From Ruminococcus flavefaciens AE3010 (GTDB taxonomy: Bacteria; Bacillota; Clostridia; Oscillospirales; Ruminococcaceae), in assembly GCF_000526795.1 (NCBI RefSeq), contig NZ_JAGT01000001.1:124001-188000 (forward strand): a stretch of 64,000 bases of DNA, written 5' to 3'. Of the stretch, positions 8,008 through 30,273 are shown piece by piece; position 1 is the first letter of the stretch, and each line of letters opens with the position of its first letter. A program made the position numbers and the translations under genes. Under the pieces are notes generated by a model that saw only the letters and a list, made by a program, of their open reading frames with translations, did no database searches and had not been told where the DNA came from.

Positions 8008-8021
8008 ATAATAAGATTTAC

Positions 8022-8104
8022 AGGGGAGCTTGCAGTACAGGCTGAGAGGAAGGTGTGACCTTCGACCCTTCGACCTGATTTGGTTAATGCCAGCGTAGGG
8101 AGTG
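8022..8104 (+). ncRNA. TPP riboswitch (THI element)
   Basis: The conserved blocks of the thiamine pyrophosphate riboswitch appear in order: GGGGAGCTTG (P1/P2 side), GCTGAGAGGAAG, then ACCCTTCGACCTGATTTGG, TTAATGCCAGCGTAGGGAG. It lies between the operon promoter and an intrinsic terminator. This is the known arrangement in which TPP binding allows terminator formation and shuts off the thiazole and thiamine-phosphate genes downstream. Confidence 0.96.
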
Positions 8105-8123
8105 TGCTTTTCAGAAGATACAT

Positions 8124-14528: not shown

Positions 14529-15947
14529 ATGAAGAGATTCTTGTCCTTGCTGGCTGCGGTGGCGATTGTACTGCCATGTATCTGTGTACCGAAAGCCGGA
14601 GCCGTTAATTTTCCGCTGCTTGAACCTATCCAGAGCGAATCCGCTGTGCTTATAAATCTTGATTCCAACATGGTCATACATGAGAAGAATGCCGATACCA
14701 AGCAGATGCCGGGGCCGCTTGTAAATATAATGACTGCTGTAGTCTGTCTTGAAAACTGTGCGGATCTTGATGAAAAGGTGACTGTTGACGAGTCCATATA
14801 CGAATATCTGTACAACTATGAGTATCCCGACGATCTGAGATTTGCCGAAATAGAGGACGGCGACGTTCTTACGGTGACCGATCTGCTCTATGCGATGATG
14901 CTCACATCGTCTGTGGAAGCCTGCGAGACTATCGCGTATAAGATAGGCAAGGGCGACACATCACGCTTTATCGAGATGATGAATACAAAAGCGGCGGAGC
15001 TCGGTATGTTTGATACCCATTTCACCAATGCAACAGGCTTGTACGACCCGGAACAGTACACCACAGCAAACGATATGACAAAGCTTACCATGTACGCTCT
15101 TGACGTTCCAATGTTTGAAACTATAGCGACTACCTACAGCTATACTCCTTCTATCCCGAATGGAGAACACCACGATAATCCGACTGAGTGGATATGGACT
15201 CACTCAAACGTTATGATGGACTCGGGCGGTGACTATGCATACAGCGGCGCCAAGGGAATAAAGACCGCGAACCTTGATATGGCAGGCAGAAATATCATTA
15301 CCATGGCAAGCCGTGACGGAAACAAGTACCTTGCTGTGCTTATGAAGTCTCCGCTGAAATCTTCAAGCGGTGATATTGCATACTTCCATATAGTTGACGC
15401 CATCTCACTTTTTGACTGGGCATTCACACATTTCTCCTATCAGACCATTCTTGCTGATACTGCGGAGGTAGGTGAGCTTCCCGTTGAGCTTGCAGACGGC
15501 AATGACTATGTTCTTGCAAAGCCCAAGGAAGAGTTCACCCGTATCTGGTATGATGAGATAGATATATCCACAATAAGCCGTGACAAGGTGGAATGGTACA
15601 AGAGCTCATTACAGGCTCCTGTAGCAAAGGGCGAGCCTCTCGGCAAGGTAACACTTGAGTATTCGGGCGAGGAGCTGGGTACAGTTGAGATAGTAGCAGT
15701 AAGCAACGTTGAGCGCTCTGTATCAAAATATAATCTTTATGTAGCAAAGATGTTCAGGAAGTCAAGGTGGTTCAACAGAGCACTGATGATCTCGTTCCTG
15801 CTCTGCGCAATATATGTACTGATATGTATCTACGCCTATGTGGTATTCAAGAGCAAGTCAAAGCCAATGAAGCCCATATATGCAGTCCCGAAGGTAAACG
15901 ATAAGGACAGACGCAGACGCAGATCACAGAACAGCGATGATAAATAA
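14529..15947 (+). CDS. DD-carboxypeptidase (PBP5/DacA) homologue with degenerate active site
   Basis: A 472-residue secreted protein: signal peptide (residues 1-25, ending PKAGA), a peptidase S11 fold, a C-terminal membrane segment (about 418-441, SFLLCAIYVLICIYAYVVF) and a basic tail. The overall S11 framework is clear (AVLINLDSNMVIHEKNADTKQMP, NIMTAVV, GTHFTNATGL-like FDTHFTNATGLYDPEQYTTA). All three catalytic motifs are changed: SxxK reads PLVN (63-66), SxN reads SSV (127-129) and KTG reads KTA (245-247). No serine nucleophile or general-base lysine remains, so DD-carboxypeptidase activity is unlikely. It may bind peptidoglycan as a scaffold or regulator. Confidence 0.88.
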   Translation: MKRFLSLLAAVAIVLPCICVPKAGAVNFPLLEPIQSESAVLINLDSNMVIHEKNADTKQMPGPLVNIMTAVVCLENCADLDEKVTVDESIYEYLYNYEYPDDLRFAEIEDGDVLTVTDLLYAMMLTSSVEACETIAYKIGKGDTSRFIEMMNTKAAELGMFDTHFTNATGLYDPEQYTTANDMTKLTMYALDVPMFETIATTYSYTPSIPNGEHHDNPTEWIWTHSNVMMDSGGDYAYSGAKGIKTANLDMAGRNIITMASRDGNKYLAVLMKSPLKSSSGDIAYFHIVDAISLFDWAFTHFSYQTILADTAEVGELPVELADGNDYVLAKPKEEFTRIWYDEIDISTISRDKVEWYKSSLQAPVAKGEPLGKVTLEYSGEELGTVEIVAVSNVERSVSKYNLYVAKMFRKSRWFNRALMISFLLCAIYVLICIYAYVVFKSKSKPMKPIYAVPKVNDKDRRRRRSQNSDDK

Positions 15948-15950
15948 CAA

Positions 15951-15986
15951 AAATACCGTACAGATCATACTGTACGGTATTTCTTT
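15951..15986. terminator. Bidirectional terminator
   Basis: Perfect 13-base stem AAATACCGTACAG (15951-15963) with CTGTACGGTATTT (15970-15982) over a 6-base loop. It lies between two convergent genes and serves both strands. Confidence 0.9.
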
Positions 15987-16723
15987 TATAATGTGATATA
16001 TTCGCTGCTCGAATAGCCCGTTATACCGTTATAGCTGACAACGTACCAGCCGTTTGTCTCGCCGTTTATCATCACAGTTGCCCCGTCGGGCATGGTACCG
16101 ATGATCTTTCCTGCAAGTGACGGGTAGCTCCGTATATTGAGGTTGCTTCCGTCGGTGGTGACAGTTCCCCAGCGGACAGCTCCCGCAGGTACAAATGGGA
16201 TACCGAAATAATCGCAGAGTGAATCGGTTATATTTCTTGCAATGGCTTCAAGATTGTTCTTCAGCCACGCTTCATCTGCGTAATTATCGTGGTAGCCCAG
16301 CTCACAGAGCACTGCCACAGCCTTTGTGCGCAGCACCTCTCCCAATGAATAGGTTGGGACTGCTCTTACTTTGTCTGGCAAAGGATAAATCGATTTCAGA
16401 TTATTGGCAATTATATTTGCAAGCTTTTCGCTGTAGCTGCTTTTGGGAGCAAAATAAATATCTATACCTCTCAGTCTGCCTGTCAGATTTTCGGGAGCGG
16501 CATTGGAGTGGAGGGCGAGGTGAACATCGTAGCTGCCTGCGTTGGAGTCTGCAATAGCGCCTGTAACGTTTCTCACGGGATCGTTGCGTACAAAGCTTAT
16601 GCCGCATGAGCGCAGATACGGCTCCATACGGTCTGCAAGGAGATTCATGTACAGCTCCTCGTTGCCCTCAGTGGCATATTGGTTCCATTCCTGAGTAGAA
16701 GGACTTAAAAATACCTTTGGCAT
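15986..16723 (-). CDS. N-acetylmuramoyl-L-alanine amidase-like protein with SH3 domain
   Basis: A 245-residue protein: an amidase_3-like domain (residues 1-175) and a bacterial SH3 domain (about 185-245, DGSNLNIRSYPSLAGKIIG to GYSSSEYITL). The later zinc-site segments are visible (LALHSNA, CELGYHDN), but the first ligand usually found in a GHGG motif is absent; the protein begins MPKVFLSPSTQEWNQYA. No signal peptide is present. I recall this SPSTQE type as a recurring form in Clostridia. It could be an endolysin-like or non-classically released amidase. AAAGGAATG precedes ATG. Confidence 0.82.
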   Translation of the reverse strand: MPKVFLSPSTQEWNQYATEGNEELYMNLLADRMEPYLRSCGISFVRNDPVRNVTGAIADSNAGSYDVHLALHSNAAPENLTGRLRGIDIYFAPKSSYSEKLANIIANNLKSIYPLPDKVRAVPTYSLGEVLRTKAVAVLCELGYHDNYADEAWLKNNLEAIARNITDSLCDYFGIPFVPAGAVRWGTVTTDGSNLNIRSYPSLAGKIIGTMPDGATVMINGETNGWYVVSYNGITGYSSSEYITL

Positions 16724-16798
16724 AAAAACATTCCTTTCTGTAAATTGAGAAAGCTCTCACTATATTTTATGCTGCGGAGAGAAAAATGTTTTTAGCTC

Positions 16799-16827
16799 TT
16801 GACTTTTGCTGTTTAAAGTGCTATACT
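16799..16827 (+). promoter_or_regulatory. Promoter of tyrA
   Basis: TTGACT (16799-16804), 17-base spacer, TATACT (16822-16827), 32 bases before the tyrA start codon. Confidence 0.8.
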
Positions 16828-16859
16828 TTAAATGATAAAAGATTCGGGAGGATATTTTT

Positions 16860-17711
16860 ATGAAAATTCTTGTTGTAGGACTTGGACTTATCGGCGGTTC
16901 ACTTTGCAAAGCGCTGAAAAAATATACATATCATACAGTAACAGGCTGCGACCTTAATCACGATATCGAGAACGCCGCTCTCCGCGATGTTGCACTTGAC
17001 AACGTTTTCGACGGAAGCTTTGAGGGCTACGACCTTATTATAATCGCTCTTTTCCCTCAGGCTACGGAGGTGTTTTTCAATGATAATGCTTCTAAAATAA
17101 GCAAAAACACCCTTATAACCGACGTGTGCGGCATAAAGGGTGAGTTTTCCGACAGAATGAAGGCTATTGCCGAAGCAAACGGACTGAGATACGTTGGTAT
17201 CCATCCCATGGCGGGCAAGGAGTTCGGCGGCTACTATAACAGTACGGCTGACCTTTTTGTAAAGGCTAATTTCATTATCGCTCCCTTTGAGGACAGCAAC
17301 GAAAAGGATACAGAGCTGCTGAAAAACGTTGCATCGGAAATAGGAGCAGGCAAGATAGTAGTTACAAGTCCCGAGAACCACGATAAAATGATAGCGTATA
17401 CATCTCAGCTGGCTCATATAGTTTCAAGTGCCTATGTAAAGAGCCCCGAGCTTGGTCTTGAGTGCGGATTCAGCGGAGGAAGCTTTCAGGATATGACCAG
17501 AATAGCCACTATGAACGAGAAGATGTGGACTGACCTTTTCATGCAGAACAGAGAGAACCTCCAGTACGAGCTGGATACCCTTATCGCAAACCTCAACAAG
17601 TACAGCGAGGCGCTGAAAAGCGGCGATAAGGACAAAATGAGAGCCCTCATTGCTGAGGGCAGAGAGCTCAAGGAGGAAAATCTCCGTCACAGAGTTGGTC
17701 AGCCTAACTAA
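16860..17711 (+). CDS. tyrA: Prephenate dehydrogenase
   Basis: A 283-residue enzyme of tyrosine synthesis that oxidatively decarboxylates prephenate to 4-hydroxyphenylpyruvate. The NAD-binding loop GLGLIGGSLCKAL starts at residue 7; family motifs TDVCGIKGEF, GIHPMAGKEFGG and SPENHDKMIAYTSQLAH (the last with catalytic-site His) are intact. There is no fused chorismate mutase or ACT domain. It stands alone behind its own promoter, and its last 8 bases overlap the convergent pseudouridine synthase gene. Confidence 0.93.
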   Translation: MKILVVGLGLIGGSLCKALKKYTYHTVTGCDLNHDIENAALRDVALDNVFDGSFEGYDLIIIALFPQATEVFFNDNASKISKNTLITDVCGIKGEFSDRMKAIAEANGLRYVGIHPMAGKEFGGYYNSTADLFVKANFIIAPFEDSNEKDTELLKNVASEIGAGKIVVTSPENHDKMIAYTSQLAHIVSSAYVKSPELGLECGFSGGSFQDMTRIATMNEKMWTDLFMQNRENLQYELDTLIANLNKYSEALKSGDKDKMRALIAEGRELKEENLRHRVGQPN

Positions 17712-18654
17712 AGAGCTTTTTCTCAAAATCAGGCTTGGGAGCTGTAATCTCCAGTTTATTGAGATAACTTACAGCCGAATCCTCGGGAAGTTCAAATTTA
17801 AGAGCGTAGGCGCAGAGCGCCTGACGGAATACGCCGTATCTCTTGTTTACGGCAGTATTGCCGTATTTGCCGTCGCCAAGTATGGGAGCTCCGATATGCG
17901 CAAGATGAGCGCGTATCTGATGAGTGCGTCCCGTGTACAGTGTGACTTCAACAAGGGCAAGAGGGGCTTTTTCCGCAAGGACGCGGTAGCCCGTTTTTAT
18001 AATCTTAAAACCGTCAGCAGGCGAGTCGAGGATCTTCACAAGATTTCTTGACTCGTCTTTTTGATGATAGGCGGTGATTATATCCTCTGTTTTGGGCAGG
18101 GGAGATGCGGTAACACAGTGATATATCTTATGCAAATTGCCGCTTCGTATTGCTTCGTTGATGTCACGGAGAGCTGCTGCGGTCTTTGCAGCGGTCACAA
18201 GTCCGCAGGTATTTCTGTCAAGGCGGCTGCACAGTGCAGGGGCAAAGGAACTCTCGTTTTCGGGCGCGTACTCTTTTTTATTATATAAGTAGTGCTTTAT
18301 CCTGTCGATAAGAGTATCGGTGAGAGGACTGCCGTTTGAGTGGGAGTCAAGTCCCACAGGCTTGCTGACAATGAGCACATTCTCGTCCTCATAGACTATG
18401 TCAAGGTCCGGGGAGCATTTCAGAAAAGACATGTCGTGCTGCTTGACCTCAGACACCTCGTCCTTGACATAAATGGTGACGATATCCCCTGTGTTAAGCC
18501 TTGAAGCTATATCGCAGCGCTTGCCGTTTATCTTTATGTCTTTTTTGCGTATCAGACGATACATCATGCTCTTGGGCATATCAGGCAGAGCTTTTGTTAC
18601 AAATTTATCTATCCTTTGACCACTGTCATTGTCATTTATCACAAATTTCTTCAT
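17704..18654 (-). CDS. RluA-family 23S/tRNA pseudouridine synthase
   Basis: A 316-residue protein: N-terminal S4 RNA-binding domain (residues about 12-75) and the RluA catalytic domain. The catalytic Asp lies in SRLDRNTCGLV (the family HRLDxxTSG motif with Cys for Ser); GRTHQIRAHLAHIGAPILGD is also typical. It isomerises specific uridines in ribosomal or transfer RNA; the target site cannot be assigned. AGGAGA precedes ATG. Confidence 0.92.
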   Translation of the reverse strand: MKKFVINDNDSGQRIDKFVTKALPDMPKSMMYRLIRKKDIKINGKRCDIASRLNTGDIVTIYVKDEVSEVKQHDMSFLKCSPDLDIVYEDENVLIVSKPVGLDSHSNGSPLTDTLIDRIKHYLYNKKEYAPENESSFAPALCSRLDRNTCGLVTAAKTAAALRDINEAIRSGNLHKIYHCVTASPLPKTEDIITAYHQKDESRNLVKILDSPADGFKIIKTGYRVLAEKAPLALVEVTLYTGRTHQIRAHLAHIGAPILGDGKYGNTAVNKRYGVFRQALCAYALKFELPEDSAVSYLNKLEITAPKPDFEKKLFS

Positions 18655-18767
18655 TTAAAATCTCCTGATTATTACAAAAAAGTATCTATAAGTTACAAAA
18701 ACATTTCTTAAATTTCTTCAAACCATACAAAAATGTGCTCCTCTTGATTTTTTTTGGACTGTAACAG

Positions 18768-18796
18768 TTGAAAAATGTTCAGAAGTATGTTATAAT
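18768..18796 (+). promoter_or_regulatory. Promoter of GH25 lysozyme gene
   Basis: TTGAAA (18768-18773), 17-base spacer, TATAAT (18791-18796). Several TTACAAAAA/TTTTGTAAC repeats surround it (for example near 18673, 18694, 18798 and 18829), which may be regulator sites. Confidence 0.8.
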
Positions 18797-18861
18797 TTAC
18801 AAAAAGCTATGATACAGTTATTTCTTTTTTGTAACGTTAACGAAAGGGAGTTTGATCGGAT

Positions 18862-20454
18862 ATGAGGATATGTAAGAGACTGCTTTCTGTTCTGACAGCA
18901 TTTTCATTTGTCGGTACAGGAGCAGTATTATCACCCTCAGAAGCTTTCGCCGAAAATAATATAAGCTGCAATATATATGATACCACAATTAGTCTTGAAA
19001 GTAAAGAGGCTTCGGGCAGTATCTTACAGGATACTGCTGACGAAAACACTGTTGAGGCTTCAAGCATGACAGAAGTACCGTTCAATGTTTTTGATATCTA
19101 TAACGCTCATCAGAAATATGTGAAGCTTCATTCGGGCGACAAAAGCCTTATGTATAAAAAGACTGAAGGCATCGATGTTTCCTATGCTCAGGGGAAGATC
19201 GACTGGCAGGCTGTCAAGGACAGCGGAATAGATTTTGCCATAATAAGAGCAGGTTACGGAAATGCCGATAAGTATCCATATCAGAAGGATACATGGTTCC
19301 AGTACAACATCGAGGAAGCCAAGAAGGTCGGCATGGACGTGGGCATCTACTGGTACAGCTACGCATACAGTCCCGAGGAGGCACGGGAGGAAGCCGAGTC
19401 CTGCTATAATATCATAAAGGATTATGATATTCATTATCCTGTATATTTTGATATTGAGGAGGAGGGACAGAAAAAGCTTCCTGTTGCCGAGATATCAGCA
19501 ATTATCGATTCTTTCTGTTCTACAATAGAGTCCAAGGGCTATTATGCAGGCATATACAGTTTTTCAAGTCTGCTTTCATCAAAGGTTTATCAGCAGGTAC
19601 TTGACAAATATGCTATATGGGTAGCTCACTGGAACGTCAAGGCACCCGGATACAAGGGAGACTACGGCATGTGGCAGCACAGCGATGCAGGTACTGTAAA
19701 CGGCATAAACACGGTCGTTGACCTTGACCACTGCTACGTGAATTATCCCTATCTTATATCACCTGATACATATGAGCCTGATGGTACAGAAACAGACGAG
19801 ACCGAGAATCTTCGTCCTCTCAGTATAGACAGAGGTGTTGCAAGCGGTATCGACGTTTCGGTATGGCAGGGCAAGGTGGACTGGGAAGCAGTAAAGAATT
19901 CAGGCATAAACTATGCAATGATACGTGCAGGCTACGGCGATCTTGCTTCACAGACCGATAAGTACTTTGAAGCAAATATCGAGGGTGCTGAAAAGGCAGG
20001 TATCGACTGCGGAGCTTACTGGTACAGCTACGCTTCGTCTCCCGAGGACGCTGTCCTTGAGGCAAAGGCTTGTCTGGAGGTCATTGGCGGACATAAGTTT
20101 GCTTATCCGATATATTATTGTATAGAGGATCAGTGCTTCTCAACAATGACCAATCAGGAGATAACCGATATCATCAACGCTTTCTGCTCAACTCTTGAGA
20201 AAGAAGGCTACTATGTAGGCATAAAGAGCTATGCAAACTTCCTTAATACAAGAGTAGACGAGTCTGTTTTCTCAAAGTATGATGTGTGGGTAGCTCATTA
20301 CGGAGTTTCAAAGCCGGAGTTCAGGAAGAACTACAATATGTGGCAGTACACCAACGACGGAAAGGTCGAGGGTCTGAGCGGAAGCTTCAATCTTGATTAT
20401 GCTTACCTCAATTTCCCGGAGATAATGGCAAAGAACCACCTTAACGGTTTCTGA
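18862..20454 (+). CDS. Secreted lysozyme with two GH25 domains, second domain altered
   Basis: A 530-residue protein with a signal peptide (about residues 1-31) and two glycoside hydrolase 25 domains (about 103-305 and 327-525). Each starts with the catalytic-face motif GIDVS (EGIDVSYAQGKIDW; SGIDVSVWQGKVDW). In domain 1 the conserved DxE pair is D197 and E199 (YPVYFDIEE). In domain 2 the same site reads C420-I-E422 (YPIYYCIED), so the first Asp is a Cys. Domain 1 should cleave muramic-acid glycosidic bonds; domain 2 may be impaired and used for binding. AAAGGGAG precedes ATG. Confidence 0.92.
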   Translation: MRICKRLLSVLTAFSFVGTGAVLSPSEAFAENNISCNIYDTTISLESKEASGSILQDTADENTVEASSMTEVPFNVFDIYNAHQKYVKLHSGDKSLMYKKTEGIDVSYAQGKIDWQAVKDSGIDFAIIRAGYGNADKYPYQKDTWFQYNIEEAKKVGMDVGIYWYSYAYSPEEAREEAESCYNIIKDYDIHYPVYFDIEEEGQKKLPVAEISAIIDSFCSTIESKGYYAGIYSFSSLLSSKVYQQVLDKYAIWVAHWNVKAPGYKGDYGMWQHSDAGTVNGINTVVDLDHCYVNYPYLISPDTYEPDGTETDETENLRPLSIDRGVASGIDVSVWQGKVDWEAVKNSGINYAMIRAGYGDLASQTDKYFEANIEGAEKAGIDCGAYWYSYASSPEDAVLEAKACLEVIGGHKFAYPIYYCIEDQCFSTMTNQEITDIINAFCSTLEKEGYYVGIKSYANFLNTRVDESVFSKYDVWVAHYGVSKPEFRKNYNMWQYTNDGKVEGLSGSFNLDYAYLNFPEIMAKNHLNGF

Positions 20455-20466
20455 TAACAAAAGCTG

Positions 20467-20501
20467 ATATGCATACCGCTGATCTGCGGTATGCATATTT
20501 T
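20467..20501 (+). terminator. Terminator after lysozyme gene
   Basis: Stem ATATGCATACCGC (20467-20479) with GCGGTATGCATAT (20486-20498) and a short T run. It ends only 18 bases before addB. Confidence 0.85.
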
Positions 20502-20518
20502 ATGTAAAGAGGATAGTT

Positions 20519-23500
20519 ATGGTCGAATTTATAACAGGCGCAGCAGGCTGTGGAAAAACCACAAGAATGTTCGCAAAGATACAGGAAAAATGCGGAGCTG
20601 CCGATAAGCTCTGCATAATAGTTCCCGAGCAGTTTTCGCAGGATTTCGATAAAAAGCTGTATTTCTTCCTCGGTGCCGAGAACTTCAACGAGCTGTTCTC
20701 ACTGAGCTTTACAGGTCTTGCAAGACAGCTCTTTCAGCTCTACGGCGACCCTGACCGCAAGGGCGAATATGCCGATGATATGGCAAAAATGATACTTATA
20801 TATCAGGCTGTGAATACGGCTCTGTCCCGTCCCGAGTCCCTCAGCAGCTTCCGCAGACAGAGTATGCAGAGCGGCTTTGCCGAGGAGATAATGACGCTGA
20901 TACGTGATATAAAGCGTTCGGGCATCACTCCCGAGGAGCTTGTTCAGCGCTCGCGTACTCTCGACAAGAGGCTTATGGATAAGACCGACGACGTGGCGGC
21001 TATTTTTCTTGAATATGAGCGGCTTATGGCTGAATACGGCTTCAAGGACGAGCTGGACAATATCCGCGAGGCAGCCGCTGTCGCTAATATTCATGAGTAT
21101 TTCAAGGGCAAGACGGTTTTCCTTGATGAGTTTGAGAGCTTTACTGCCGACCAGTACGAAATGCTTCGCGTAATGATATCATCTGCCGAAAATGTGTGCA
21201 TAGCTCTCAGAACAGACGATGTGAACGCAGGGGAGTATACCCTCTTCGAGACAGTTAACGACACCTACAGAAAGATAATGAACATCTGCCGTGAGCTCGG
21301 CAGGGAGACTGCTGTTGAAAAGTGCGGTAAATGCTATAGATTCAAAACACCCGACCTTGAATACGTCAGCAGACGGGCTCTTGTGAACCTGAGAAACGAA
21401 GCCGATAAAGCTCCGAGAGCTGAAAATGTCCATATTTTTGAGTCAAAGGATATGTACGACGAGGCGGAGTTCGTATGCGCAACAATAAAGCACATTGTCT
21501 ATGAGGACAGGTCGCTGATGTACAAGGATATTGCCATAATCTCCAATGATATCGCGTTATACTCCGATGTGCTGAAGGCTTCTTTCAAGAGGTACGACAT
21601 ACCATATTTCCTCAGTCTTGAAAAGGAGGTTGCCCATACCTCCATAATGGTATTTTTCACGTCAATGCTTGATATTCTTTCAAGCCGACGTATCCGCTCA
21701 GAGCAGATATTCCGTTTCCTGAAAAGCGGACTCCTCGACGTCTCGCTAACCGAGGTATCACTGCTGGAAAACTACTGCTATAAATGGGACGTTGACGGCG
21801 ACAGCTGGCTTGATGAGTTCAGAGCAGAGGACGAGCAGCTGGAGCTTCTGGAGAGAATCAGGAACAAGACGGTTGTCCCTCTCGTTAAGCTTAAAAAGAA
21901 GCTCAGCGGCAAAAACACTGCGGAGAAGCTTTGCTCCCTGCTGTACGACCATATAGTTTACTGCAATGCCGAGAAAAACACGGCAAAGCTCATGGGACAG
22001 CTCATTAAGCAGAACAAGGACTACGAAGCTGCGGAGCTGAAACGGCTCTGGGGCTGCCTTATGGATATACTTGACAGTCTCAGCGATACACTGGGGGATA
22101 AGGACATAAGCTTTTCGGAGTTTAACCGTATTATCCGCTCCATGATAGGACGTATCAAATACTCCGTGCCCCCACAGACGCTGGACACTGTAACGGCGGC
22201 TTCCGCACGTATGGCACGTCTGGACTCCCCGAGAGTCGTGTTCGTTATGGGAGCCAATGACGGTGACTTCCCCAATCAGATAAGCCTTCACGGGCTTTTC
22301 TCGGAGGCTGAGAAGACCAAGCTCTCCGAAAACGGCATAGAGCTTTCCACACCTCTTGCGGAGCTTATCGCTTCCGAGCGCCTTGTGGTATATAAGGCCA
22401 TATCAGCGGCTTCCGACAGGCTTTATATGACCTATCCGCTGTCAGACCTTTCGGGACAGGCGAAATATCCCGCACAGATAGTAGACAGGATAATCGCCAT
22501 GTTCGGCGATGAGAGCATACGCATGAACGGCAGCAGCCTTTCAGCCGACTACTACGCGGCAACGCTCCATTCTGCGTTCTATCACTATATGCAGGAGCGC
22601 AAGAGCAATAGTCCCGCCGTTGCTTCCGTTAAGGAGCTTCTCATGGGAGCTCCCGAATATAAGCGCAGGCTCTCATATGTTATGAGCAGGGGCTATCACA
22701 CCCAGAGCTTCAGCATAGACAGGGACATTATGGAGAAGCTGCAAAGCTTTGAGCCCTTAAAGCTGTCCTCGTCGGGACTGGAGGAGTACAATCTCTGCCA
22801 CTTCAAATACTTCTGCGATAAATGCCTGAGACTTCATCTCAATGAAAAGGTGGAGCTTGACGCCCGCATCGCAGGCGAGCTCACCCACAGGTGCTTTTAC
22901 GGCATACTCAGGAAATACAGCAAGGCTGAGTTTGTGGAGCTGCCCTGCGATGAAATGAAAGCCGAGATAAACGCCTGTGCCGAGGAATACCGCACGGAGG
23001 CTCTTGCGGGAGATTTCGGCAAGGACGCCAAGTTCGACCTTATCTTCAACAAGCTCACCGAGCGTATGTCTGAGGTCTTCATGTACACTCAGCAGGCTCT
23101 TATGGCTTCGGATTTCGTACCACATAAATTTGAGCTCGACCTTCGGGACAGCCATTCTGTCATAATTCCTTTCGGGGACGGAAAACAGCTCAGCTTCGGC
23201 GGAATAGTTGACAGAGCCGATGTCTGCGATATAGACGGAGACAGATATCTCCGCATAATAGACTACAAGAGCAGCCGTAAGGACATAACTGCGGAGACTC
23301 TTGCCTGCGGAATAAATATGCAGATGCTGCTGTATCTGTTCGCTTCCACGGACAAGGGCGGCGTGTATGAGGGGTATGCTCCTGCGGGAGTTCTCTATTC
23401 TCCCGTAAGGATTTCAGAGGTACATCTGGAGTCTCACAAGGTCGATTCAAAGAACACGGGAGCTGTCAGCTCGGCGCTCCGCACCAGCGGACTTGTACTG

Positions 23501-23854
23501 GGCGATATGGATATCCTTGAAGCTATGGAAAAGAACGTCCGCGGCGAATACATACCCGTAAAACTTGATAAGAACGGCGTTCCGGACAAGAATTCAGCTT
23601 GTATCTCCGCAGAGGGAATGACTTTGCTGAGAAATTACACCTACGGCAAGCTTCAAAGCATGGCGGAGTCCCTGCTTGCAGGCGACGCAGAGGCGATACC
23701 ACTTCTCATGGGGAACAAGCTGCCCTGTACTTACTGTGAGTACATGAATATATGCGATAATTCCGAGCTTGAACGCCAGAGAACGCCCGACGACAGCGCA
23801 GTAGCCGAGGCACAGGCGATACTCGGAAAAAAATATAAGGGAGAGGAGGAGTAA
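20519..23854 (+). CDS. addB: ATP-dependent helicase/nuclease subunit B
   Basis: A 1111-residue AddB subunit. A Walker A motif is at the N-terminus (GAAGCGKTT, residues 7-15). The C-terminal RecB-type nuclease has GGIVDRADV and RIIDYKSSRK. The iron-sulfur staple is formed by an upstream Cys in YNLCHFKYFC and the C-terminal group CTYCEYMNIC. With AddA it processes double-strand breaks for RecA loading at Chi sites. It is 1 base from addA. Confidence 0.95.
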   Translation: MVEFITGAAGCGKTTRMFAKIQEKCGAADKLCIIVPEQFSQDFDKKLYFFLGAENFNELFSLSFTGLARQLFQLYGDPDRKGEYADDMAKMILIYQAVNTALSRPESLSSFRRQSMQSGFAEEIMTLIRDIKRSGITPEELVQRSRTLDKRLMDKTDDVAAIFLEYERLMAEYGFKDELDNIREAAAVANIHEYFKGKTVFLDEFESFTADQYEMLRVMISSAENVCIALRTDDVNAGEYTLFETVNDTYRKIMNICRELGRETAVEKCGKCYRFKTPDLEYVSRRALVNLRNEADKAPRAENVHIFESKDMYDEAEFVCATIKHIVYEDRSLMYKDIAIISNDIALYSDVLKASFKRYDIPYFLSLEKEVAHTSIMVFFTSMLDILSSRRIRSEQIFRFLKSGLLDVSLTEVSLLENYCYKWDVDGDSWLDEFRAEDEQLELLERIRNKTVVPLVKLKKKLSGKNTAEKLCSLLYDHIVYCNAEKNTAKLMGQLIKQNKDYEAAELKRLWGCLMDILDSLSDTLGDKDISFSEFNRIIRSMIGRIKYSVPPQTLDTVTAASARMARLDSPRVVFVMGANDGDFPNQISLHGLFSEAEKTKLSENGIELSTPLAELIASERLVVYKAISAASDRLYMTYPLSDLSGQAKYPAQIVDRIIAMFGDESIRMNGSSLSADYYAATLHSAFYHYMQERKSNSPAVASVKELLMGAPEYKRRLSYVMSRGYHTQSFSIDRDIMEKLQSFEPLKLSSSGLEEYNLCHFKYFCDKCLRLHLNEKVELDARIAGELTHRCFYGILRKYSKAEFVELPCDEMKAEINACAEEYRTEALAGDFGKDAKFDLIFNKLTERMSEVFMYTQQALMASDFVPHKFELDLRDSHSVIIPFGDGKQLSFGGIVDRADVCDIDGDRYLRIIDYKSSRKDITAETLACGINMQMLLYLFASTDKGGVYEGYAPAGVLYSPVRISEVHLESHKVDSKNTGAVSSALRTSGLVLGDMDILEAMEKNVRGEYIPVKLDKNGVPDKNSACISAEGMTLLRNYTYGKLQSMAESLLAGDAEAIPLLMGNKLPCTYCEYMNICDNSELERQRTPDDSAVAEAQAILGKKYKGEEE

Positions 23855-23855
23855 T

Positions 23856-26800
23856 ATGGGCTGGACCCAACAGCAGCAGAACGCAATAGACGCCAGAGAT
23901 ACGTCACTTATCGTATCCGCAGCCGCAGGAAGCGGCAAGACCGCTGTACTTACGGAAAGACTTGTTCAGCTCATAGCGGACAAGGATTCGGGAGTCCGTG
24001 CGGACAGAATGGTAGTGGTAACATTTACCAACGACGCCGCAGCGGAGCTGAAAAAGCGCCTTGACAGCAAGCTCCGCGCTATTATAAACGATCGCCCCGA
24101 CGACCGTCATCTGCTGAAACAGCAGATACTTCTCCAGAGCGCAAGAATATCCACTATCAACTCTTTCTGCTTCGATCTTATCAGGGACAACATCGGCGAA
24201 AACGGCATAACCTCGGGGTTCAGCGTTCTCGACGACACCGACAACAAGGTGCTGAGAGCCCGTGCCCTTGAGGAGCTTATCAACTACTACAGCAAGAACG
24301 AGTACGACAAAATATCCTTTATGTACGACAGCTTCTGCATCAAGGACGAAAAGCGCCTTGTAGAGGTCATTGAGCGTGCCGATAATTTCCTTTCATCGGT
24401 GGCTATGTCGGATAAATGGCTGGAAAAAGCCGTCGCCAACTACAATACCGACTTTGAGGATTCCATATATTATCAAAAGCTTATTGAAACTCTTACCCGT
24501 CAGCTTGAATCGGCGCTGAGGACTGCTGATGATAATTTGGGCATGATAAGCCGCATATTCCCTGATATGTCAGCTCCTGCGGCAGTAAAGTCCTATGAGC
24601 AGGCTGAGAACGATTACGACAATGTATCCGATCTTCTCGGAGTGTTCAGAAGCGGACGTATCCCCACATTAGAGGAGTGTGCAAAAGCTGAGAGCTTTGC
24701 AGACCTTGTGAGAGTGGGGAAAACTGTCCACGACAAGGCGCTGAGGGAGATATTCAAGAAAAAGCGAGATATTATAAAAAAGACTGTTTCCAAGGTCGTA
24801 AGCAGCATAACGTCGCTGGACAGCGACTTTGCCGAGAGCGGCGAGGTAACGGCTGTTCTTATGGAGATGCTGAAAAAGTACCACGAGATAGTCTGGGAGA
24901 AAAAGTGTGAGAAAAACGCCCTCAGCTTCGACGACGGCGAGCGCCTTGCACTGGATATACTGGCTGCCGAGGACGAAAATGGCAGGATAATACAGTCGGA
25001 GGCGGCAGAAAAGATAGCCGACTATTACGATATAATCATGATCGACGAGTATCAGGACTCCAACAACAAGCAGGATCTGATATTCAAGCTTATATCCAAG
25101 GATTACAAGCTCAGCGAAAACGGGGAGCCCCTTTACGGGGACAATGTTTTTCTTGTAGGCGACGTAAAGCAGTCTATTTACCGTTTCAGACTGGCTAATC
25201 CGCGGAACTTCATAACCACTCTTAAAGGCGCGGACAGATATTCAGCCGACAGCGTCAGCAAGAACCAGTACATAACTCTTAATAAGAACTTCCGCAGTTC
25301 GCCTCAGGTCATCGACTTCGTAAACTATGTTTTTTCGCAGATAATGAGCGAGAACTGCGGCGATATAGACTATAACAGCGACGAAATGCTCTATTTCGGT
25401 GCGGAGCAGTTCTCAGCGGCGGACGGAAGCGACCGCATTACCCATATCTCGTTTATAAATGACGAGCCCAGCGAGGTGGAGGACGACAGCGCTAATACTG
25501 ACGCAAAGGCTGACCGCGAAGCTGTATTTACGGCGCAGAAGATTGCACAAATGCTTAAAGATGGCGTTCTTGTCACGGACAGGGACGGCACTCAGCGTCC
25601 CTGCAGACCGTCGGACTTCTGTATTCTCGTCAGAAATAACTCTTACATAAATGCTTATGCGGACGAGCTGAACAGACTTGGCGTGCCTGCAAAGGGCAAC
25701 GAGGAAGCAGGCTATCTCAAATCCCGAGAGATAGCAGTTCTCATCGACCTGCTGAGAGTTATCAGCAACCCTTTGCAGGATATACCTATGGCGGCTGTTA
25801 TGACCTCGCCAATGTATATGTTCAGTATCTCTGACCTTGCGGTGATAAAGTCTCTTGATAAGCACAGGGCGCTCTTTGCTATAATACGCGGACTTGCAGA
25901 GGGCGATTATGAGGAATGCACGGATATGTTTCTGAGGGAGCACTGTATGGAATTCCTTGAATCCCTTGACGAATTCAGGCTTGATTCGGTGACTATGACT
26001 CTCGGAGAGCTTATCGGCGAGATATACGACACCACGGATTTCATATCCGTTATGCAGCTCTACAGCGACGGCGACCAGAAGCGTGCGAACCTTCGCGTAC
26101 TTATCCAATACGCCCAGAATTACGAGAACTCCGCAGCCTTTGACGGCACAGGAGGCTTGAACGGATTCCTGCGTCACCTGGACAGAGTTATGGAGAACGG
26201 CGATTACGCACAGGGAAAAATATCCGCTTCATCGGGGGAGTACGTCAGCGTGCTTACCCTGCATCGCTCAAAGGGACTGGAATTCCCATTTGTTTTCATA
26301 GCCGAGACCTCTGTGAACTTCAAGTTTGATTCCAAAACTGTTATGTGCAGCGACGACGGCAGGATAGGCTATGTGCTATATGACCCCACGCTGTTCCGCA
26401 AATACAGGACGTTTCAGCAGACCATGCTGTCTGCCGAGGAAGAAAAGGCGACCCGCAGCGAGGAAATGAGACTGCTCTATGTAGGACTTACAAGAGCTCA
26501 GCAGCAGCTCTTCATCAATCTGAAATGCAGTGAAAAGGCGCTGAAACGCGTGAATGCGCTCATTGAAAGCTGTATGCTCCACAATGACGATATAACCGAA
26601 TGGGTGTCGGAGGCTAAGAGCTTCTCCGACTGGCTGTGGGCGGCTGTTGTACGCAGCACTGAGTTTGGGGATATAGCTCAGCAGCTTGGACTTGATGTGA
26701 GCAGGCTCGGAGCAGGCATATCAGCTGATAAGCTATTTGAATATGAGATAGCCGATACTGGTGCTGCGGAGCTTACCGAGGAAGAAACAGTCGAAGATGA

Positions 26801-27500
26801 AGCAGTCCCTGACGTTGAGCTTATCGCCCGCATGAAAGAGCTCATAGATTTCCGGTATGACAGGACTCTCTCCGAAACTCCTGCAAAGCTCAGTGTTACC
26901 CAGATAACAAAGAAGCTGAAAGAGAACGACGACAGCTTCGATTTCAGGCTGAAACGTCCAAGGTTCAAGTCCGAGGGCTCAAAGCTCACAGGCGCTGAGC
27001 GGGGAACAGCAATACATACATTCTTCCAGTACTGCGATTTTGACAGCGCTATTGAAGCTCCCGAGGCGGAGATAGCAAATGTCTCTCAGAAAGGCTATAT
27101 AAGTCCTGCTGAGGCTGAGTCCATAAGCGCGGAGAATGTCTCGGCGTTCTTCAAAAGCCCGCTGTACGGCAGGATAAAGAGCTCTCTGCGATATGTGAGG
27201 GAGAAGAAATTCATGGTCGCAGTCTCTCAGCTCAACGTAGAGAACGAAACTCTCGACAGGCTTAAAAAGTCCGACGGTATGATAAAGGGCATCATAGACC
27301 TTATGTTTGAGGAGCCAGATGGCATTGTAATAGTTGATTACAAGTCCGACAGGGGAGTATCTCTTGCGGCGCTGAAAGAGCGTTATTCCATGCAGCTGAA
27401 GCTCTACAAGGCGGCAATAGAGCTGACTACAGGCAAAAAGGTCAAGGAAATGCTGCTCTACTCATTTGAGCTTAAAGACAGCATAAATGTTGAACTATGA
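23856..27500 (+). CDS. addA: ATP-dependent helicase/nuclease subunit A
   Basis: A 1214-residue UvrD-like helicase with C-terminal nuclease. Walker A AAAGSGKTAVLTERL is near residues 23-37; helicase motifs IMIDEYQDSN, VGDVKQSIYRFR, LTLHRSKGLEFPFVF and LLYVGLTRAQQQL are intact. The nuclease part contains GTAIHTFFQYCDF and the catalytic VDYKSDRG. It starts with AGAGGAGG just upstream, overlapping the end of addB. Together they form the AddAB recombination complex. Confidence 0.96.
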   Translation: MGWTQQQQNAIDARDTSLIVSAAAGSGKTAVLTERLVQLIADKDSGVRADRMVVVTFTNDAAAELKKRLDSKLRAIINDRPDDRHLLKQQILLQSARISTINSFCFDLIRDNIGENGITSGFSVLDDTDNKVLRARALEELINYYSKNEYDKISFMYDSFCIKDEKRLVEVIERADNFLSSVAMSDKWLEKAVANYNTDFEDSIYYQKLIETLTRQLESALRTADDNLGMISRIFPDMSAPAAVKSYEQAENDYDNVSDLLGVFRSGRIPTLEECAKAESFADLVRVGKTVHDKALREIFKKKRDIIKKTVSKVVSSITSLDSDFAESGEVTAVLMEMLKKYHEIVWEKKCEKNALSFDDGERLALDILAAEDENGRIIQSEAAEKIADYYDIIMIDEYQDSNNKQDLIFKLISKDYKLSENGEPLYGDNVFLVGDVKQSIYRFRLANPRNFITTLKGADRYSADSVSKNQYITLNKNFRSSPQVIDFVNYVFSQIMSENCGDIDYNSDEMLYFGAEQFSAADGSDRITHISFINDEPSEVEDDSANTDAKADREAVFTAQKIAQMLKDGVLVTDRDGTQRPCRPSDFCILVRNNSYINAYADELNRLGVPAKGNEEAGYLKSREIAVLIDLLRVISNPLQDIPMAAVMTSPMYMFSISDLAVIKSLDKHRALFAIIRGLAEGDYEECTDMFLREHCMEFLESLDEFRLDSVTMTLGELIGEIYDTTDFISVMQLYSDGDQKRANLRVLIQYAQNYENSAAFDGTGGLNGFLRHLDRVMENGDYAQGKISASSGEYVSVLTLHRSKGLEFPFVFIAETSVNFKFDSKTVMCSDDGRIGYVLYDPTLFRKYRTFQQTMLSAEEEKATRSEEMRLLYVGLTRAQQQLFINLKCSEKALKRVNALIESCMLHNDDITEWVSEAKSFSDWLWAAVVRSTEFGDIAQQLGLDVSRLGAGISADKLFEYEIADTGAAELTEEETVEDEAVPDVELIARMKELIDFRYDRTLSETPAKLSVTQITKKLKENDDSFDFRLKRPRFKSEGSKLTGAERGTAIHTFFQYCDFDSAIEAPEAEIANVSQKGYISPAEAESISAENVSAFFKSPLYGRIKSSLRYVREKKFMVAVSQLNVENETLDRLKKSDGMIKGIIDLMFEEPDGIVIVDYKSDRGVSLAALKERYSMQLKLYKAAIELTTGKKVKEMLLYSFELKDSINVEL

Positions 27501-27504
27501 GGAC

Positions 27505-27532
27505 AGAGCTCTCCGAAAGGGGAGCTCTTTGT
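27505..27532 (+). terminator. Terminator after addA
   Basis: AGAGCTCTCC (27505-27514) pairs with GGGGAGCTCT across a GAAA loop and is followed by TTTGTG. Confidence 0.75.
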
Positions 27533-27590
27533 GCTGTCTGTATAAGATAGAACATAGTTTTTGTCTAATTCGGAGAATATGAAAAAAATG

Positions 27591-27619
27591 TTGACAAGAA
27601 TTTTTTTGTGTACTATAAT
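27591..27619 (+). promoter_or_regulatory. Consensus promoter upstream of VanY-like gene
   Basis: TTGACA (27591-27596), 17 bases, TATAAT (27614-27619): a perfect vegetative promoter, yet 460 bases before the next start codon. Confidence 0.9.
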
Positions 27620-27625
27620 ATAAGA

Positions 27626-28080
27626 TACAGAGATATATAATATTATGGTGTAGAATGAACAAAAGAAGGAAACAAATATCGCAATGCTTATAAAAATATA
27701 CAGGCACAGCGGTTTTCCTTTAAAGTTCTAATATTTTTCGGAGTCATGACTATGGGCTGAGTGCAGGCTTTTGCAGACGTACTGTTTCTGCATGACCTGT
27801 TATCGGTTCAGGCTGACATAAAAGGTGTCGCACCTTTATTTCCGAGTTTCTACAGAACAGGCAGGAAAACAGCAGTGTCTTTTTTATTTCCCTGCCGACG
27901 GACAGGTCGGGGGACAGGATCAAAGACAAATTGGCTGAATGCTATTCTGATAAAACATAAATAATACTCAGATGCACAATGCGTCTGAATGATCGGCGGA
28001 AAAAGAAAAAAGCGCCTACAGAAAGATAACCACAGTATTATTTTATGATGTAGAACAAAAAATCGGAGGATATAATCAAA
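27626..28080 (+). ncRNA. Long structured leader or non-coding RNA upstream of VanY-like gene
   Basis: About 455 bases with no convincing reading frame, downstream of a perfect promoter. Several hairpins are visible: AAAGGTG/CACCTTT (27821-27837), GGCAGG paired with CCTGCC around a T-rich segment (27860-27896), and TCAGATGCA/TGCGTCTGA (27968-27988). It does not match the conserved cores of TPP, c-di-AMP, c-di-GMP, cobalamin or SAM riboswitches that I know. It could be a cis-regulatory leader or an independent small RNA. Confidence 0.45.
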
Positions 28081-29055
28081 ATGCAGGAGCCAAAGAAAAA
28101 GAAGCTCAGGCTCAGCAGAGTACTGCTGGCTATGGGCGCTATTGTGGTCACACTTTCAGGAGCTGATACGCTCAGAAGAAGTCTGGCATCACAGCAGCCC
28201 TACAATCTTACAATTAACGGAACATTCCGCAGCTCAGAAGCTCAGGAGGAAGCACCTACGGGAAGCAGCCTTTCGCTGGGAACAACCGACGAAATGACAA
28301 CTGCCTTTGAAGGTGTGAAGTATCTTGGCTATTCTGAGTACGAGATCTCAAAAAATGATCTTGCAGAAGGATTGCTTGCAATATATACCGAAAGCGCTCC
28401 CGCTAAAGAGGAAAACAGTAAAGCACTGGTTGACCTGTCGGAAGAGAAGAACGAATTCTATACCCTTGTTGACGAGGAGGTATTCCTCAACGAGGACGCG
28501 GCAGAGGCACTCAACTCCATGATGGAGGATTATGCAAACCAGACTGCTTTAGCTGATTTTATCGTATACGGAACTACCGATACATATACAGGTGAAAATT
28601 CATACTGCCCAAAGTCTTTCAGCGAGTCCAAGGCAGGTTACTGCGTAGACCTCGCACTTAATGCCTATGGCTCTGTGCTGTCATACGACGGATATGATAC
28701 AGAGGGCTGGATAGTTGAGAACTGCTGGAAGTACGGATTTATAGTAAGGTATCCGCAGAATAAGAAGGACAAGACAGGCAATGAATATTGTCCGTGGCAT
28801 CTCAGATACGTGGGTGAGGTACACGCGGCAATAATGGCTAAAAAGGAAATGTGTCTGGAAGAGTACGTTGACTTCCTTGAGCAGTATACCTTTGAAGAGC
28901 CCTATTCCTTTACGTTCAATAATAAGGGATATCAGGTGTACTCTGTTACCGGAAACGACGAGAAGTACAAAACGAGAGTACCGATATCGGGTAATTACGA
29001 GATTACAGGCGATAATAAGGACGCGTTCATTATCACCGCTTTAAAAAATGAATAA
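28081..29055 (+). CDS. VanY-like (peptidase M15B) homologue with altered metal site
   Basis: A 324-residue protein with a basic N-terminus, one membrane or signal segment (about residues 12-30, RVLLAMGAIVVTLSGADTL) and a C-terminal domain matching VanY D,D-carboxypeptidases: WIVENCWKYGFIVRYPQNK, TGNEYCPWHLRYVG and the LEEYVDFL tail. In VanY the zinc ligands are His and Asp of SxHxxGxAxD and the His of ExxH. Here the first motif is SESKAGYCVD (S181-D190) with Ser at the His position, and the catalytic Glu before PWH is C237. Asp190 and H240 remain. Normal zinc carboxypeptidase activity is doubtful. Ribosome binding site TCGGAGG. Confidence 0.85.
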   Translation: MQEPKKKKLRLSRVLLAMGAIVVTLSGADTLRRSLASQQPYNLTINGTFRSSEAQEEAPTGSSLSLGTTDEMTTAFEGVKYLGYSEYEISKNDLAEGLLAIYTESAPAKEENSKALVDLSEEKNEFYTLVDEEVFLNEDAAEALNSMMEDYANQTALADFIVYGTTDTYTGENSYCPKSFSESKAGYCVDLALNAYGSVLSYDGYDTEGWIVENCWKYGFIVRYPQNKKDKTGNEYCPWHLRYVGEVHAAIMAKKEMCLEEYVDFLEQYTFEEPYSFTFNNKGYQVYSVTGNDEKYKTRVPISGNYEITGDNKDAFIITALKNE

Positions 29056-29061
29056 TATAAG

Positions 29062-29088
29062 GGAGCAGCTTGTTGCTGCTCCTTTTTT
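29062..29088 (+). terminator. Terminator after VanY-like gene
   Basis: GGAGCAGC (29062-29069) pairs with GCTGCTCC (29075-29082), followed by six T residues. Confidence 0.92.
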
Positions 29089-29133
29089 CATTTTTTTGCA
29101 AAAAATCGCATATTATCCTGTGAGGTGATGAAT

Positions 29134-30273
29134 ATGCTGAGAAAATTACGGACCTGGGCTGCTTTTATTGCAATATGCGTATTTTCGGCTTTATTTATGG
29201 GAGCTGTGGAAAGTGAAGAGCCTGAGCCTAAGGCATATGTGCTCATGGAAGCCGAAACACATACGGTACTCAATGAGCTCAACGCCGATAAACGGCTCAA
29301 CGGGAGCTATCTCACAAAGCTTATGAGCGTCCTGCTCATTGCCGAGGATATACAGAATGGGGAGTATTCCCTTGCTGACGAGCTTACGGCTTCCGAGAGC
29401 GTTACAAATACCAAAGGTGCGGTGATATGGCTTGAAAGCGGCGACAAAATAACAGTTGAAGAACTCCTCAAAAGCGTTATTATCGGCAACGCCAACGACG
29501 CAATGACCGTTCTTGCGGAGAAGTCAGCGGGGAGTATCGAGAGCTTCGTCATGGACATGAACGCAAAGGCTTTTGACCTTGGACTCCGCGATACAAGGTT
29601 CGTTTCGCCTTATGGGTATTATTCGCCCGATGAGTACACCACAGCCCATGATATGGCGGTGATATGCTGTCAGCTGGCGGAGTACGACTTCCTTGCGCCC
29701 ATGTTTACAACGTGGCGTGACTTCGTAAAGGGCGGTAGAACAGAGCTTGTCAGCGAGAACACTCTCACAAGGACGTACGACCGACACATCGGCTTCAAGG
29801 CCTGCCATTCCGATGAAGCGGGATACTGCATTGCGGAGGGCGGCAGAAACGAAAAGGGCAGTACTTTTGTCTCGGTAGTTCTTGGTTCTGAGAATGAGGA
29901 TATATCCTTCGGGACGGCAAAAAGGCTTTTGCGCAGCGGCTTCAGCGGCTATAAGGTGACCTTTACCATGTTCCCCGACGAGATGCTTGCTCCCGTAAAG
30001 GTGAAAAACGGAACTGCTTCAGCTGTTGAGATATACCTGAAAGAGCAGGGAAAAGCGGCTGTTCCAAAGGGCTCGGGAGAGCTTCGTGCCCGTGTGGTCA
30101 TCCCCGAATACCTGACAGCTCCCGTAAGAATTGGTCAGCCAATCGGTACGGCAGCCTTCTATAATGACGATATGCTTGTCTATGAGACTGAACTGCTTAC
30201 TAAAAGCGCCGTTCCCAAGCTGAGCTACAGTTATGTTTTGGGTAAGCTGTTGGAGAAAATGATGGAAAAATAA
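29134..30273 (+). CDS. DD-carboxypeptidase (DacF-like) homologue with degenerate active site
   Basis: A 379-residue secreted S11 peptidase homologue with a signal peptide (residues 1-25) and a C-terminal region of the PBP5 type. Alignment by eye is gap-free through DKRLNGSYLTKLM. The nucleophile of SxxK is Tyr (YLTK, 59-62; a Ser lies one residue earlier), SxN is NAN (119-121), and KTG is KAC (222-224). The surrounding framework (SDEAGYC, FVSPYGYYSPDEYTTAHDM) is well kept. Peptidase activity is unlikely. It follows the VanY-like gene in the same direction after a terminator. The start at 29134 fits GAGGTGA 6-7 bases upstream; 29125 and 29128 are alternatives. Confidence 0.86.
   Translation: MLRKLRTWAAFIAICVFSALFMGAVESEEPEPKAYVLMEAETHTVLNELNADKRLNGSYLTKLMSVLLIAEDIQNGEYSLADELTASESVTNTKGAVIWLESGDKITVEELLKSVIIGNANDAMTVLAEKSAGSIESFVMDMNAKAFDLGLRDTRFVSPYGYYSPDEYTTAHDMAVICCQLAEYDFLAPMFTTWRDFVKGGRTELVSENTLTRTYDRHIGFKACHSDEAGYCIAEGGRNEKGSTFVSVVLGSENEDISFGTAKRLLRSGFSGYKVTFTMFPDEMLAPVKVKNGTASAVEIYLKEQGKAAVPKGSGELRARVVIPEYLTAPVRIGQPIGTAAFYNDDMLVYETELLTKSAVPKLSYSYVLGKLLEKMMEK

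Follow-up and report, generated by a model that had tools for sequence, protein, structure and literature searches.

The roles of the SxxK, SxN and KTG motifs of S11 peptidases and of the zinc residues of M15 peptidases are well established, and peptidase databases list S11 homologues that are inactive. The described enzymes nearest to the proteins considered here are the PBP5/DacA-type S11 carboxypeptidases, the K15 DD-transpeptidase of Streptomyces, and the M15B peptidases VanXY and VanY. The LytM (M23) family is known to include dead wall peptidases: EnvC, NlpD, Csd2 and SpoIIQ have dead metal sites, and several act through partners (PMC5053510, PMC8416486). A review likewise describes the M15-type site of the Hedgehog pseudopeptidases as a protein-binding surface (PMC11266112). 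In titles and partial abstracts of the open-licence literature, covering part of the field, no conserved S11 or VanXY-type bacterial pseudoenzyme family was found. Here we describe candidates of both kinds in a 64,000-nucleotide stretch of the 3.7-Mb genome of Ruminococcus flavefaciens AE3010 (G000:C1:124001-188000, hereafter the window). They comprise two S11 homologues, S11a (14529..15947) and S11b (29134..30273), and one M15 homologue (28081..29055), all on the forward strand. We put a probability of roughly 0.7 on the reading that these three lost catalysis stepwise and were kept as non-catalytic wall proteins, the M15 protein and S11b acting together and S11a forming a separate case.

A sequence-only reading of the window had listed four proteins with altered catalytic motifs, these three and a tandem GH25 protein. 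All four open frames stand at the positions claimed, Pfam assigns them to S11 (PF00768, S11a and S11b), VanY (M15) and GH25, and direct reading together with alignment confirmed each replacement: PLVN/SSV/KTA in S11a, YLTK/NAN/KAC in S11b, Ser and Cys in the M15 protein, and Cys in GH25 domain 2. Genome searches recovered four S11 genes, the two besides S11a and S11b having canonical motifs (STTK/SGN/KTG and SLTK/SGN/KTG), seven M15 proteins with H/D/E/H intact in five, and six GH25 domains, among which the DxE Asp is missing only in domain 2 of the protein at 18862. The motif losses in the window proteins exceed chance.

S11a carries a signal peptide (by eye), an S11 domain, a PBP5_C domain and a basic tail, with a C-terminal helix at residues 413-443 that appears by eye to be a membrane helix. 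Its fold and its domains, like the Pfam domains of S11b, are those of PBP5 and K15, and the structural model of S11a (predicted local distance difference test score, pLDDT, 86.6) keeps the S11 fold, matching K15 (1skf) with a target template modelling score of 0.86 and E. coli PBP5 (6ntz) with an E value of 2e-28. Unlike these enzymes, S11a is without the Ser and Lys of SxxK. Motif alignment places PLVN at the SxxK position (residues 63-66; 14715..14726, plus strand), SSV at SxN (residues 127-129; 14907..14915, plus strand) and KTA at KTG (residues 245-247; 15261..15269, plus strand). Whether such substitutions recur in orthologues had been left to alignment by the sequence-only reading, and they prove conserved in all three proteins. 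For S11a, with the query and the best 120 of 637 homologues aligned, PLVN is found in 119 of 121 sequences and SSx in all 121, x never being Asn; the third motif reads KTA in 70, KTG in 46 and KTS in 5. SxxK is likewise missing from all 29 loci examined in the genus (29 of 29), which were the top-scoring ones among 60 genomes.

The relatives of S11a form a series that runs from SLTK/SAN/KTG through SLTK/SAC/KTG to forms with Q, N or D in place of the Lys, and then to PLVN. The SxC variant common to the S11a outgroup is also that of K15, which has SGC in the alignment and whose structure entries are titled C98A (1es3) and C98N (1es4). Since the K15 DD-transpeptidase itself has SGC, the SxC stage was probably still active, and SxC as a sign of death in this outgroup was rejected. 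In a tree of 142 S11 sequences, computed by a quick method with motif columns excluded and genus rows thinned beforehand, the S11a clade without SxxK has a Shimodaira-Hasegawa-like approximate likelihood ratio (SH-aLRT) support of 98 and is nested in a clade (98) whose other members are nearly all SxC. The SxxK state requires at least 10 changes on this tree, 6 of them forced by starred branches, and the Ser or Lys of SxxK is also absent from S11a-type sequences outside the clade (L231, L232, L234, L235, L237, L242, L244 and L246). The relationships of these sequences indicate that S11a lost SxxK separately, following an SxC, K15-like stage. The changes in S11a also cluster at the motifs. In 34 relatives with SxxK intact, 70 columns are conserved, of which 52 hold the same residue in Ruminococcus and 13 have a changed majority residue; 7 of these 13 lie within 3 residues of a motif versus 9 of the other 57 columns (Fisher p 0.007, or 0.019 for the motifs alone; every second homologue was used, here and for S11b, and the 3-residue margin was our choice).

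S11b, which has S11 and PBP5_C domains and what looks by eye like a signal peptide, differs from PBP5 and K15 in lacking both motif serines and the Thr and Gly of KTG. By motif alignment YLTK stands at the SxxK position (29308..29319), NAN at SxN (29488..29496) and KAC at KTG (29797..29805), all on the plus strand, and a ribosome-binding-site-like GAGGTGAT precedes the ATG at 29134 (by eye). Among 121 aligned sequences (the query and the best 120 of 914, the window protein being counted twice, as query and as P0001), the nucleophile position is Tyr in 116, with 3 Phe, 1 Ala and 1 Ser as exceptions; NAN is present in 120, and the Gly of KTG is missing from all 121. In one relative (L075; G142:C119) the S11b orthologue is seemingly split over two frames, at positions 2953 and 3416.

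The direction of change in S11b can be read from its neighbourhood and its distribution. In the window S11b is followed by pgi (glucose-6-phosphate isomerase) and further along by der, plsY and gpsA. Among 19 loci of other genera, 16 have S11b, dead or intact, and pgi side by side in the same orientation; 15 of the 19 are dead (NAN), 2 partly changed (L055, L056) and 2 intact. Of the intact two, L057 preserves the window gene order up to gpsA, and L058 does so to the end of its locus. Because this pgi neighbourhood is common to both, intact and dead S11b are positional orthologues. Within the family (100 genomes including that of the window, 69 S11b-type best hits fetched in descending order of score so that weaker genomes are missing, L196 and L205 unparsed and L033 too short), the 67 parsed loci comprise 46 intact, 18 NAN, 2 partly changed and 1 unreadable. 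At the level of the order, where the best 28 loci from 147 genomes were read for motifs, SxTK, SAN or SGN, and KTG are kept in 26 of 26 loci from ten other families, and the two loci from the window's own family are one NAN (L320) and one intact. The intact loci of other families and the intact positional orthologues together show that the S11b loss is derived inside one family, and the NAN forms make up a clade in the S11 tree (SH-aLRT 98). Orthologues with normal motifs, which the sequence-only reading had treated as a pointer to sequencing error or recent loss, thus exist for S11b in other genera, where they mark an old, clade-wide loss rather than an error.

The M15 protein, with an N-terminal helix that looks by eye like a membrane anchor, is VanXY-like nearly along its whole length. 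Its model (pLDDT 73.9) finds VanXYg (4f78) as best structural match (E 1.3e-17), C-terminal extension included, and the Asp (D190) and second His (H240) zinc ligands are kept. Unlike VanXY and VanY, it has Ser183 at the position of the first zinc His (28627..28629, plus strand) and Cys237 at that of the catalytic Glu (28789..28791, plus strand), it lacks the substrate-Arg segment in the alignment, and it has two new conserved Cys. Across the query and the best 120 of 289 homologues the His is lost in all 121 (Ser 110, Arg 11), and the Glu is replaced by Cys in 119 and by Tyr in 1, with a gap in the one remaining sequence. The window protein is 92% and 88% identical to its counterparts in R. 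flavefaciens YL228 and MA2007. Deeper Ruminococcus branches carry other letters at the two positions (Asp/Val in L102, Asn/Cys in L103 and L104, Asn/Ser in L105), so what is constant is the loss and not the replacement letter. Hedgehog proteins, which are animal signalling proteins, gave weak structural matches to the M15 protein; a table in the review gives Shh three retained metal ligands, versus one missing here (PMC11266112). Elsewhere in the genome a second dead M15, L254 (G000:C1:3113410-3113769, outside the window), reads SDYHTG and RARDYTYRYVG and lacks the Glu as well as the two zinc His. T[YF]RY(V/I)G replaces WHxRY in 20 of 20 genus loci of this type (L263-L282), which were chosen as weak matches to the window M15 protein, a choice that favours the type.

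Replacements fixed in this way might be carried by genes that are relaxed or decaying, or be assembly artefacts of one strain. Interrupted copies do occur in some relatives, with internal stops or, as in L075, a split frame. The replacements are however fixed across the genus, and the ratio of nonsynonymous to synonymous substitution rates (dN/dS, Nei-Gojobori) of the window pseudoenzyme genes is 0.06-0.14 overall. Against two related loci (L035/L036) it is 0.078/0.064 for S11b and 0.092/0.139 for the M15 gene; for S11a it is 0.096 against L170 at a synonymous divergence (dS) of 1.78, dS being saturated against L168 and L171. Comparison genes in the same loci give 0.055/0.057 (AddA), 0.045/0.050 (AddB) and 0.017/0.020 (pgi) against L035/L036. 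With replacements conserved in homologues and dN/dS far below 1, sequencing error and recent decay are ruled out, and we regard the explanation by decay or artefact as extremely improbable. These comparisons support S11a, S11b and the M15 protein as maintained pseudoenzymes under purifying selection, and the proposal that they are expressed rather than decaying is borne out in its second half.

A rival account is a remodelled active site that still works. The M15 protein would then bind metal through C176, C237, D190 and H240 and carry out a different reaction, and S11a and S11b would hydrolyse weakly through SS/KT or Tyr/Lys. C176 is invariant (121/121) and C237 nearly so (119/121), neither is present in the aligned intact paralogue L252, D190 and H240 remain, and KT is retained in S11a and the Lys in S11b. 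The two cysteines are nevertheless separable, L102 having C176 with V237 and L108 having Y176 with C237, and the Lys of SxxK is absent from S11a in 29 of 29 genus loci. The position beside the Lys of S11b is variable (S, T, G, A, N) and offers no conserved new nucleophile, for which reason a nucleophile relocated to it was rejected. New chemistry at these sites is accordingly an unlikely account. A third possibility, in line with the sequence-only reading, is that the old clefts still hold stem peptides uncut, as sensors or shields of peptidoglycan. The fold and PBP5_C persist, as do many conserved residues outside the catalytic ones, among them the K of KTG in both S11 proteins. The M15 protein is without the substrate-Arg segment, and S11b has changed widely, with 39 of 105 conserved columns changed, 49 kept and 17 weakened. 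We consider a sensing or shielding role possible but somewhat doubtful; it overlaps the reading as non-catalytic wall proteins, and the odds given to the two need not sum to one.

For the reading as non-catalytic wall proteins, gene order is the main guide to which of them belong together. When the genus was searched (60 genomes) and the 30 top-scoring loci were read, the window genome included, S11b followed the M15 gene in 26; among the other four, L085 and L088 are cut off by a contig edge. The M15 protein and dead S11b most likely work together. S11a lies 13 kb from them and belongs to a different S11 lineage; its own neighbourhood includes, in 12 of 21 loci, a divergent gene with a phosphoesterase-like look (Pfam Metallophos_2 below cut-off). 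In 16 of these 30 loci the M15 gene has a third S11, S11c (SLTK/SGA/KTG), upstream of it. It is not among the four S11 genes of the window genome, and the sequence upstream of the M15 gene in the window gave only chance matches, with no recognisable remnant. In relatives (L038, L060-L063, L065 and others) S11c contributes 23 distinct sequences, gathered by SGA at SxN, all of which keep KTG and the Ser and Lys of SxxK (23/23 each). The SGA equals that of the K15 C98A mutant (1es3), and from its motifs S11c is possibly active.

Several observations weigh against the preferred reading. The evidence for a partnership of the M15 protein and S11b is gene order only, and in 7 more distant genus loci S11b follows M15 in only 2 (L106, L107), being on the opposite strand in L108 and showing no M15-S11b pair in L102-L105. 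A terminator-like hairpin (29059..29085, plus strand, consensus match) stands between the two genes; by eye, L035, L036 and L038 carry a similar hairpin there and L037 one of another kind, so joint transcription would need read-through. Losses in S11a and S11b are not associated across 42 family genomes (p = 0.28, kinship uncorrected), S11a being lost in 6 of 13 genomes with NAN and 7 of 28 with intact S11b; one further genome pairs a partly changed S11b with an SxxK S11a. The S11a side of this sample consists of 49 best hits taken best-scoring first, so weaker genomes are missing. Changes in S11b cluster only weakly at the motifs (p 0.037 within 3 residues, 0.11 for motifs alone), because the protein has changed widely. 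Ser and Lys still stand at SxxK in 3 of 18 NAN genomes, and P0073, one of the 121 aligned sequences, has SMTK, so not all relatives have lost both residues. Finally, the substrate-Arg segment of the intact paralogue L252 is missing from the M15 protein in the alignment (R138 is the Arg that the review's table lists for the M15 D-Ala-D-Ala enzyme; PMC11266112), which makes a stem-peptide-binding role doubtful for this member.

The proposal of a single set of four pseudoenzymes stands only in part, with the M15 protein and S11b as frequent neighbours. The tandem GH25 protein (18862..20454, plus strand) retains DIE in domain 1 and has Cys420 (CIE) for the DxE Asp in domain 2 by sequence comparison (20119..20121, plus strand). 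The domain 2 position holds Cys in the window, L035 and L036, Ala in L037 and Ser in L038 (Asp in 0 of 5 compared), and dN/dS against L035/L036 is 0.109/0.087. Domain 2 is degenerate, while the complete protein probably retains activity through domain 1, judging from the motif of that domain. Because S11a is of a distinct lineage, the S11a and S11b losses are not associated, and GH25 domain 1 is intact, at least two independent histories are more probable than a single set of four. An Amidase_3 and SH3 protein of the window (15986-16723, minus strand) has SPSTQEWN where its family has the GHGG zinc-His motif, and keeps LHxN. The GHGG His is missing from 28 of 28 relatives matching the SPS pattern (28 of 30 loci matched, two unread); since the missing His is a subfamily trait, the amidase was rejected as a fifth pseudoenzyme.

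Expression signals bear out the sequence-only reading to a limited extent. The frames are intact, the signal peptides are by eye, and the promoters and terminators are consensus matches only (36 promoter-like sites versus 21.5 expected, 17 terminator-like sites versus 13.3). One of these, a perfect TTGACA-17-TATAAT of sigma-70 type (27591..27619, plus strand, consensus match only), lies 462 bp upstream of the M15 gene in a 580-bp gap (27501-28080) that is 83-84% identical in L035 and L036. The leader of about 460 nt that it would give has no Rfam match at the gathering threshold. A thiamine pyrophosphate (TPP) riboswitch lies at window 8012-8118, upstream of thiamine genes.

Taken as non-catalytic wall proteins, S11a, S11b and the M15 protein would descend respectively from a K15-like S11, a PBP5-like S11 and a VanXY-like M15, all working D-Ala-D-Ala peptidases whose active sites would have been replaced step by step while purifying selection retained the proteins. 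Signal sequences and anchors recognised by eye would place them at the membrane's outer face, where they would no longer trim stem peptides. They may instead bind to partner proteins or to material of the wall and in this way position, hold or switch working wall enzymes. Since the genome still encodes intact S11 and M15 enzymes, a non-catalytic scaffold or regulator role is the most likely one by analogy. The nearest worked-out model is that of the degenerate LytM proteins EnvC and Csd2, which share the feature of a dead wall-peptidase fold and differ in belonging to M23 rather than S11 or M15, so that the likeness is one of analogy only. A bolder version, which we regard as speculative, is that much of the Ruminococcus D-Ala-D-Ala peptidase toolkit has become a non-catalytic envelope system. 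Such a system would have at least four conserved dead enzymes (S11a, S11b, the M15 protein and the L254-type M15), with a complex of the M15 protein and dead S11b that neighbouring S11c joins in many species; it would do a LytM-like job, perhaps with a new Cys/Asp/His metal site in the M15 protein.

The dead wall enzymes of these Ruminococcus gut bacteria thus probably serve the wall as partners or scaffolds rather than through catalysis. Existing labels of their homologues (D-alanyl-D-alanine carboxypeptidase, serine hydrolase, M15 metallopeptidase) probably do not fit the proteins of Ruminococcus. Living genera preserve a stepwise series, from intact motifs through SxC to no SxxK and from SAN to NAN, which is a natural record of a penicillin-binding fold losing catalysis under selection. 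Together these proteins provide a case, open to testing, in which S11 and VanXY folds would serve as non-catalytic parts of the wall, a role known mainly from LytM proteins.

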